Part shown: positions 23,595 through 26,136 of the stretch, one piece after another | Numbering within the stretch: the first letter of the stretch is position 1 | Layout of the letters: each line of letters starts with the position of its first letter | Origin: Spirochaetia bacterium | GTDB lineage: Bacteria > Spirochaetota > Spirochaetia > Treponematales > Treponemataceae | NCBI GenBank assembly: GCA_022773305.1 | Contig: JALFAW010000198.1 | Location: 1-36,354 of the forward strand | Direction of reading: 5' to 3' | Length of the DNA stretch: 36,354 nt | Notes under the pieces: generated by a model | Told to the model about the DNA's origin: nothing | What the model saw: only the letters and a program-made list of their open reading frames with translations | Databases searched by the model: none | Program-made: the position numbers and the translations under genes

Positions 23595-25100
23595 ATGTTT
23601 AAGAGCAACGAAATCTTTTTAGGGAGAAAGAAAGAAATGGTTCTGCTGGAGTCACTATATGACTCAAATAAATTTGAAATGCTTATTCTCCATGGCAGAA
23701 GACGAGTCGGGAAATCATATCTTCTGTCACATTTTGCAAAACTTCATTCAGATAATACTGTTTACTTTACTGGCGATAAAGACTCGGAAAAGAACAATGT
23801 TCAGAATTTTTGTGAGGAGCTTAATCGTGTATTAAAAGTTGGAGACTTTCTTAATTCTTTTACAACCTGGAATGATGTTTATTCATTTTTAAGAACTGCG
23901 GAAATTAAAGACAGACTTGTTCTTATAATTGATGAGTTTACATATCTTTATAATTCAAATCCAGCATATGATTCTGGTCTTCAAAATGCAATTGATAAAA
24001 TTTTAAAATCTAAGAATATATTTCTTATTTTATGTGGTTCAGAGGTATCTGTAATTGAAGAAATTATTGATGATTCAACTAAACCTCTTTACGGTAGAAA
24101 AACATCCGAACTAAAACTTCTGCCATTTACATATAAGGAAGCCCGGGAGTTCTTTCCTCATTATTCAAATGAAGAAGCATTAACAGCTTATTCCATACTT
24201 GGTGGAATTCCACTTTATCTTTCTTTATTTGATGACAGACTTACAATCAAAGAGAATGTAATAAAAAATTGTCTTTCCACAACAGGATACCTTTTTAATG
24301 AAATAGAGACGCTTTTGCGAATGGAACTTAAGGAAACTCATTTTTATAAAAATATTATGCTTGCAATAAATGCTGGTGCTTCTACATTTAATACGATTAG
24401 GGACAAGGTTGGAGAAGATGCGGCCAAAATTGCAAAATATATCAATGTTCTGATAAATCTTGGATTCATAAAAAAAGAAGTTCCATGCGGAGAAAAAGAG
24501 AAGAGTAGAAATACTTTATATTCTATAAGTGATAATTATTTTGCTTTTTATTTTGCATTCATTTTCAAACACCAGAATATGCTGAATGGACTAATTTCAC
24601 CAGAGATGTATTATGAAAAAGAACTTACAAAGATAAAATTGAATACATTCATTGGGCATCGTTTTGAACAGATTTGTGAGACTTATCTAAAAGAGCAGTT
24701 CTATAATGGAAAAATGCCTTTTTTTGCTGAAAATCTTGGTCGCTGGTGGGGAAATAATTCTGTTTTAAAAAAACAGGAAGAAATAGATGGAGAGTTGATA
24801 ATTTCTAGCAACTCGCCAAACGGACGAGTCAAGGCGAAAAGCAAAGCGTGCCTTGACCGGACGTACTTATTAGCGACTGATGATGAGAATGCAGTTATTT
24901 GTGAATGTAAGTACACAGAAGACCCTTTCGATGAAAAGCAGTTGAAAGATCTGCAGGATTCAGCATTGTGTGTTACGCAGCAGAATAAATCGTACATAAT
25001 TTTCTCTAAAAATGGTGTGTCTTCAGGCGTTGAAAAATATCTTAAGAATTTACCAGGATATTCAGTGGTTACTCTGGATGATTTGTTTTTAAGTGAGTAG
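23595..25100 (+). CDS. AAA ATPase with C-terminal DUF234 nuclease-like domain, carrying an in-frame hairpin insertion
   Basis: 'FLGRKKEMVLLESLYDSNKFEMLILHGRRRVGKSYLL', 'LVLIIDEFTYL', 'LGRWWGNNSVLKKQEEID...LLATDDENAVICECKYTE'. Confidence 0.9.
   Translation: MFKSNEIFLGRKKEMVLLESLYDSNKFEMLILHGRRRVGKSYLLSHFAKLHSDNTVYFTGDKDSEKNNVQNFCEELNRVLKVGDFLNSFTTWNDVYSFLRTAEIKDRLVLIIDEFTYLYNSNPAYDSGLQNAIDKILKSKNIFLILCGSEVSVIEEIIDDSTKPLYGRKTSELKLLPFTYKEAREFFPHYSNEEALTAYSILGGIPLYLSLFDDRLTIKENVIKNCLSTTGYLFNEIETLLRMELKETHFYKNIMLAINAGASTFNTIRDKVGEDAAKIAKYINVLINLGFIKKEVPCGEKEKSRNTLYSISDNYFAFYFAFIFKHQNMLNGLISPEMYYEKELTKIKLNTFIGHRFEQICETYLKEQFYNGKMPFFAENLGRWWGNNSVLKKQEEIDGELIISSNSPNGRVKAKSKACLDRTYLLATDDENAVICECKYTEDPFDEKQLKDLQDSALCVTQQNKSYIIFSKNGVSSGVEKYLKNLPGYSVVTLDDLFLSE
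24789..24866 (+). repeat. 78-bp hairpin-rich in-frame insertion in the DUF234 domain
   Basis: GTCAAGGC (24828-24835)/GCCTTGAC (24850-24857) and ACTCG (24811-24815)/CGAGT (24825-24829); interrupts the usual EID-(I/L)(V/L)A motif. Confidence 0.6.
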
Positions 25101-25255: not shown

Positions 25256-26136
25256 ATGGAAATTATAACACGAAACGAAAAGATTTTGTACATTGGAATT
25301 GATGTTCACAAGGACACCTATTCACTTTGCTGCTTTGTTTTTCACAAGAATGAACTTTCTGATGAGATGACAATTAGGGCAACAACGAAAGCTGTAATAA
25401 AATATCTGGAGGCAATAAAGAAAAAAAACACAAGGAAGAAATCCTGTTCGTCTGCGGATACGAAGCCAGGGCAAACAGGTTACGGTCTTTGCCGCGGATT
25501 ACAAAAGGCTGGTTATGGCTGCGTAGTTATGGAACCCGACAACAATGTCGAATTCAGATGTAAAGAAGAGGGTAAAAACAGACAGAATTGATGCAAGGGC
25601 AATAGGAACTTCTTTCCTGCTGAGAAATGGGAAATCGTATCCTGAAAGCGGAAATTACTGAACTGAAAAATTCTTCAAATGGATAAGGACCGTTCAGTTT
25701 TCAGAAAAATGGATGCAGGAGGCTTTAAATGAGTATCTTTCGGAAGTTTACAGTCTGAAAGCCAAAATTGAATTGATGGATATGAAAATCAGAGAGATTG
25801 CAGAGCTAGAAATTATAAAGGATAAAGTTGATAAGCTTGTGTGTTTCTCAGGTATTGATGTAACTACAGCAGTTGAAACAGTCGTGGAAATCCATGATTT
25901 TACAAGATTTGCAACGGCAGTATAGTTTGTAAGTTATTTGGGACTTTGTCCTGGAGAAGATTCAGCAGAAAGACTAAAATATGCTTCCGCTCGCGAAAGC
26001 AGGGAATAAGCGCGTGAGGTCTTTGTTCTGTGAGTTTGCGAAGGCAATAAAACGGACGAATCCTTATGGCGAAAAATCCAAGAGGATTTTTGAACGGAAA
26101 AATAGCTTAGTTCATTATTCATATTTTAAGTTTTGA
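25256..26136 (+). pseudogene. Degenerate IS110-family transposase
   Basis: 'YIGIDVHKDTYSLCCFVF', 'VKTDRIDARAIGTSFLL', 'LVCFSGIDVTTAVETVVEIHDFTRFATA*FVSYLGLCPGEDS', 'KAGNKRVRSLFCEFAKAIKRTNPYG' spread over frames with stops. Confidence 0.85.

Follow-up and report, generated by a model that had tools for sequence, protein, structure and literature searches.

A two-hairpin palindromic element of Treponema inserted in frame into the nuclease motif of a DUF234 ATPase

Palindromic repeats that invade proteins in frame are known best from Rickettsia. We know of no identified mobiliser for the Rickettsia repeats, and the obligate intracellular life of these bacteria is a possible excuse for such invasion. 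The Rickettsia palindromic elements (RPEs), RPE-1, RPE-4 and RPE-6 of R. conorii among them, are described as dispersed and multi-copy; they lie in frame in unrelated proteins, where each encodes a recurring peptide (PMC10969869, PMC3733652). The repetitive extragenic palindromes (REPs) of the GTAG/CGTC type are single stem-loops of 20-40 bp in which GTAG or CGTC stands unpaired at one end (PMC3733652). In this study we analysed a stretch of 36,354 bp from a Treponema genome (contig JALFAW010000198.1, positions 1 to 36,354), hereafter the window, in which 78 bp interrupt the gene of a DUF234 ATPase. We are confident of a reading in which these 78 bp belong to a family of non-autonomous mobile palindromic elements found in Treponema, each composed of two adjacent hairpins spanning 72-81 bp with the edges NAT^ on the left and CGTAY^ on the right (^ marks the boundary); in this reading the copy inserted in frame, was presumably mobilised in trans and probably affects the nuclease.

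The host gene lies on the forward strand at positions 23,595-25,100 and is open throughout its 501 amino acids. Its Pfam matches, ATPase_2 and DUF234, describe an AAA+ ATPase with a C-terminal DUF234 or PD-(D/E)XK-like domain, in which the invariant D and E-x-K are present. The initial annotation had proposed an in-frame insertion of 26 amino acids at 24,789-24,866; the open reading frame is as it described, and a relative with an empty site fixes these coordinates to the base. This closest orthologue (G014:C20, same genus, 81% identical) lacks precisely the 78 bp: at this place its DNA has GAAATTGAT^TTACTCGC, against GAAATAGAT, the 78 bp and TTATTAGCG in the window. Accordingly, a protein search of relatives matched it in two pieces, query residues 6-398 and 425-499. 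The 26 inserted residues (GELIISSNSPNGRVKAKSKACLDRTY) are absent from all 11 aligned homologues, whose identity ranges from 81% down to 26%. Neither of the two findings that would have told against the initial annotation was made, namely homologues with this segment but no palindromic DNA, or a repeat with no further copies. The insert begins immediately after the GAT codon (24,786-24,788) of the invariant D398, which is the Asp of the EID motif and is predicted to be catalytic, and ends with CGTAC ahead of the invariant E437-x-K439, the ECK motif, which is kept at 24,903-24,911. The insertion into this gene therefore postdates the split from the closest sampled relative, and it lengthened the reading frame by 26 codons without breaking it.

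The higher GC content of the insert relative to its surroundings, pointed out earlier, is clear (51% against 32% in the remainder of the gene), and no other 78-bp segment of this gene exceeds 44%. The unit as a whole surpasses chance by a wide margin, with a DNA-fold z of -5.9 and the covariance-model match given below. A single stem of 8 bp, on the other hand, is unremarkable in this DNA, since an overlapping count gives 61 perfect stems of this length in the window. The deciding test is therefore the recurrence of the unit together with its insertion status.

Both hairpins of the window copy are recovered by folding and by alignment to a covariance model. Hairpin 1 (24,789-24,817), which also shows covariation across the family, has the arms GGAGAGTTG (24,789-24,797) and CAACTCGCC (24,809-24,817) with one A.G mismatch; it had been overlooked. 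Hairpin 2 (24,820-24,864) reads ACGGACGA GTCAAGGC, a loop, and GCCTTGAC CGGACGT, with a conserved unpaired A at 24,827. Its stem contains the 8-bp pair GTCAAGGC/GCCTTGAC of the initial annotation, which we locate at 24,828-24,835 and 24,850-24,857, whereas the 5-bp ACTCG/CGAGT stem listed beside it falls outside the family structure. The near-direct repeats TAGCAACT/TAGCGACT at the edges match by coincidence and do not represent a duplicated target, because one is an arm of hairpin 1 and the other is host gene sequence. The dinucleotide AC of CGTAC (24,865-24,866; family consensus CGTAT) forms the right insert boundary, as both the empty site of the orthologue and the family edges indicate.

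Across the family the sequence of hairpin 1 is almost unconstrained while its pairing is kept, as in CAGGGGTT/AACCCCTG, GAGGCTTGA/TCAAGCCTC, GCCAAGTGT/ACACTTGGC and others. The core of hairpin 2, AGTCAAGGCYTTRAGCG(N)AGCGTGCCTTGAC, is conserved, and its imperfect outer stem ends ACG...CGT. In an alignment of 91 distinct rows, pairing holds in 96% of cells, and 380 cells are altered on both sides compared with 110 in shuffles; slid partners pair in 31-52%. Although the rows were aligned by means of the model, both controls, slid and shuffled, lie far lower. The edges were read in about 156 copies. The left edge is NNAT in nearly all of them (TTAT in 96, TGAT in 23), the right edge is [CG][GC]TAY (CGTAT in 138, CGTAC or close variants in the remainder), and the edge-to-edge lengths peak at 72-74 and 77-80 bp. 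On the left the base at position -3 varies, but the right end is constant, which rules out a target duplication of 3 bp; any duplication is at most 2 bp, and a 2-bp AT duplication is indistinguishable from fixed ends. A discrete unit thus inserts at a fixed edge, and uninserted relatives show exact empty sites. The loops of hairpin 2 are GCGAAGC, GCGTTAGC and similar throughout the family. These are presumably of the type that forms unusually stable DNA mini-hairpins, which would suit recognition of the element as single-stranded DNA. Many intergenic copies lie directly 3' of a T-run (TTTTTTAT^), as if placed at the ends of transcription terminators.

The element is present in high copy number in its own genome. 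A DNA search with the insert and short flanks found 41 places. The covariance model, trained on 12 copies with the window copy held out, recovers that copy at 24,787-24,869 (60.2 bits, E = 4.9e-12) and gives 117 matches in this genome at E<=0.01. These include a few that are weak or that duplicate a strong match on the opposite strand. The copies number about 115, some of them in frame inside other proteins; a search for such further copies had been proposed from the window alone. Beyond this genome, 80 of 118 congeneric Treponema genomes carry the element. Among the other genera sampled in the order it was found in 4/61, all four from the same family, and the remaining sampled genera gave no match to the model at E<=1e-6. 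The matches listed in a GTDB pattern scan belong to Treponema and to Spirochaetaceae/Spirochaetales records, with T. bryantii, T. ruminis, T. porcinum and the strains JC4 and C6A8 as named carriers, plus one record labelled Bacillales. In this last record (L218) the copy sits at a contig end with the same flanks as Treponema copies, which probably reflects a metagenome binning error. The hairpin-2 core gave no exact match in the viral contigs of IMG/VR, and apart from nearby tRNAs no Rfam family scored above threshold in the window or in 18 copy-bearing loci of the same genome. A TD-2 match at one locus (L003) was rejected because it is under its cut-off and draws on neighbouring DNA hairpins. 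In the open-licence literature we found no description of palindromic or miniature repeats of Treponema. The element is previously unnamed, and with no match in Rfam its sequence and architecture appear new.

Seven in-frame cases were found in six kinds of protein: the DUF234 ATPase, a DUF4143 ATPase, a DUF2201/VWA protein, RecG (twice), an OmpA-like protein and a secreted protein. All seven copies are in plus orientation and phase 0, following GAT in six cases and TAT in one. The frame they share is the stop-free frame of the element (plus strand, codon boundary after NAT), while the other frames mostly contain stops. The DUF4143 ATPase of the same genome (L022) carries a 72-bp copy, and four orthologues at 88-94% identity are without it, the difference being exactly 72 bp, with empty sites such as AAT CTG GAC^TAT GG and TTA GAT^TAT GG. 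An 81-bp copy in the DUF2201/VWA protein of T. ruminis (L241) has an exact empty site, TTTGAG^TTTATGGG, in another genome (G015). In one RecG, a DNA-repair helicase, the copy lies between helicase motifs at a loop that is variable among RecG proteins (L199), and in the RecG of a second species it lies at a different loop (L391); for both RecG sites the uninserted state is seen in other RecG proteins. The remaining two copies are in an OmpA-family protein (L195) and in a signal-peptide-bearing protein with no Pfam match (L197); for these two and the second RecG the frames were read from the sequence, and not from an empty-site alignment at the DNA level. Open frames at L002, L008, L211, L228, L354, L365, L369 and other loci are short or probably spurious and were left out of the count.

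A length that is a multiple of three, inserted after a NAT codon, yields a full-length protein, whereas other frames, or lengths not divisible by three, would truncate it, as in a ParB-like gene. The pattern is therefore as predicted from survival after untargeted insertion, and the in-frame copies may be the survivors of such a process. At the ParB-like locus (L012, G000:C58:1987-2068) the copy disrupts the gene out of frame (HSRFMA^AKKAG by eye); a broken IS200-type Y1 gene is close by, and the right flank repeats the TATGGCAG of the left hairpin arm. A bolder thought, which we regard as rather doubtful, is that this mobile palindrome of free-living gut spirochaetes is adapted to life within proteins. 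The NAT^ edge, which can fall on a codon boundary, the length that is often a multiple of three and the one stop-free frame would then make a cassette of 24-27 amino acids able to enter proteins, even RecG, without truncation, with hairpin 1 drifting under pairing alone.

The comparison with Rickettsia palindromic elements that had been drawn from the window holds for mechanism and behaviour, but not as sequence membership. Like the RPEs, the Treponema element is palindromic and multi-copy (117 model matches), it lies in frame in unrelated proteins that have uninserted homologues, and it uses one reading frame across different host proteins (7/7). It differs in being ~72-81 bp long with two hairpins, against ~150 bp reported for RPEs, and in its host, a gut or rumen spirochaete and not an obligate intracellular alphaproteobacterium. 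Most Treponema copies, moreover, are outside genes, and the likeness is one of described behaviour and not of direct sequence alignment. With the CGTC- or GTAG-tagged REPs the element shares short imperfect palindromes, asymmetric ends and a mostly intergenic position with some copies in open reading frames, including DNA-repair genes (here RecG twice). However, a unit of 72-81 bp with two hairpins falls outside the REP definition of size and tag, and its reverse-strand ACG(T/A)C-like motif is variable and lies inside the stem of hairpin 2. The subterminal hairpins, the short fixed edges (NAT left, TAY right) and the lack of both a long target duplication and terminal inverted repeats (TIRs) recall the miniature elements derived from IS200/IS605 and those moved by REP-associated tyrosine transposases (RAYTs), but no autonomous copy with the ends of the Treponema element was found and a Y1 partner is inconsistent. 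Miniature inverted-repeat transposable elements (MITEs) of the TIR type are likewise small, non-coding and of high copy number, and some Treponema copies are nested in one; the unit itself is without TIRs and has a target duplication of <=2 bp.

In the window's own genome (G000) such nesting holds for about 39 of the 92 copies inspected. The enclosing repeat is 180-308 bp long, is bounded by AGGACAAATGTCGAGTTTT.../...ACTCGAAATTGAACCT with apparent duplications of 3 bp (AAC/AAC, ATT/ATT, AAT/AAT), and can be seen at L027, L018, L110, L115, L124, L129, L139 and other loci. The larger repeat is apparently a second, TIR-type MITE with the hairpin element as its passenger. Another composite repeat, with the shared flanks AAGTTTGCGTTGCAAACTTATT...GAACTGCTGTTCCTCATTGC, occurs at L005, L007, L008, L013, L015 and L016 of the same genome and in other Treponema species too, as well as at L073, L062 and L196.

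How the element moves can be weighed against these observations. It might be argued from the many 8-bp stems in the window that the hairpin arose by chance, or that a domain which evolves fast simply varies in its loops, but the precise empty site, the roughly 115 copies and the covariation rule this out, and we give it practically no credence. It is also very improbable that a TIR-type MITE driven by a DDE transposase spread the copies with the two-hairpin unit as a mere passenger. The copies nested in the repeat bounded by AGGACAAATGTCGAG.../...CTCGAAATTGAACCT, with its apparent duplications of 3 bp, speak for such a process, and they do mean that part of the copy number of this genome is due to hitch-hiking, which counts against independent movement of the unit. 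Yet many copies, including that of the window and all those in frame, are without these flanks, the empty sites are exactly one unit long, and in other genomes the unit is found free of the TIR repeat. We prefer a unit that would be mobilised in trans, perhaps while folded as single-stranded DNA; the enzyme responsible may recognise the conserved hairpin 2 and the AT/TAY edges. A Y1/HUH transposase, IS200/IS605- or RAYT-like, would be the most plausible candidate.

A narrower version of this proposal, which we think possible although the odds are somewhat against it, is that the element is a unit like a REP or a bacterial interspersed mosaic element, moved specifically by the RAYT (Y1 plus C-terminal domain, ~250 amino acids) of some genomes through single-strand peel-and-paste, with cleavage at NAT^ on the left and CGTAT^ on the right. 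In its favour are the position of the hairpins close to the two ends, the asymmetry of these ends, which lack TIRs, the fixed AT/TAY edges and a target duplication of <=2 bp. Y1 genes of RAYT length (~250 amino acids) are found in 12 of 118 congeners, and all 12 of these carry the element compared with 68 of the 106 without such a gene (p = 0.007). At least 10 copies are found in 6/12 and 18/106, respectively (Fisher p = 0.015); both statistics ignore phylogeny, and copies per genome were counted up to 40. Several results weigh against a RAYT partner. Eighteen genomes without a RAYT are copy-rich, and one of them (G001, 97% complete) has 55 copies and no Y1 gene at all. Copies rarely flank RAYT genes, with one within ~1.5 kb at only 1 of 13 RAYT loci. 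Replication-strand bias, a possible sign of single-strand transposition, was not significant when set against the GC skew of one genome (17 versus 10, p = 0.25). Taken together, these observations leave a weak association, and the RAYT as a candidate and not a conclusion.

What the insert does to the DUF234 protein can be gauged from predicted structures. In the AlphaFold model of the uninserted orthologue (mean predicted local distance difference test score, pLDDT, 88.5) a continuous strand with the Asp (393-402) is followed by the strand with ECK (406-413). In the model of the window protein residues 392-421 are below pLDDT 50, the strand resumes at 424-428, and the ECK strand (432-439) is intact. 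The insert probably splits the strand bearing the predicted catalytic Asp by a disordered stretch, so that the nuclease site is probably perturbed and its activity weakened or lost, while the ATPase part and the overall fold appear to be kept. Of the two outcomes first envisaged, a tolerated surface loop or a disabled nuclease, the predictions favour disruption and disfavour a harmless loop. It could be asked whether the insert is instead a selected, functional addition, such as a new surface loop or a regulatory segment. The intact open reading frame and the translated inserts reported in Rickettsia (PMC3733652, PMC10969869) would fit this, but the insert follows the invariant catalytic Asp directly in an active-site strand, it is predicted to be disordered (pLDDT about 27), and other copies in unrelated proteins are mostly in variable loops or at ends. 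We consider such a function unlikely. Directly 3' of the host gene, at 25,256-25,591, the start of an IS110-like transposase frame (GIDVHKDTYS), cut short at 111 amino acids, was noted by eye.

Mobile DNA can thus split active-site motifs while the open reading frame stays open, which calls for caution in annotation. The element provides a second system of this kind, in gut Treponema that include cultured species such as T. bryantii and T. ruminis. Its empty sites are exact and its uninserted orthologues close, and it opens two questions to testing: by what means elements of this sort move, and whether the peptides they add do harm, are of use or have no effect. The family is also a marker for Treponema genome evolution.
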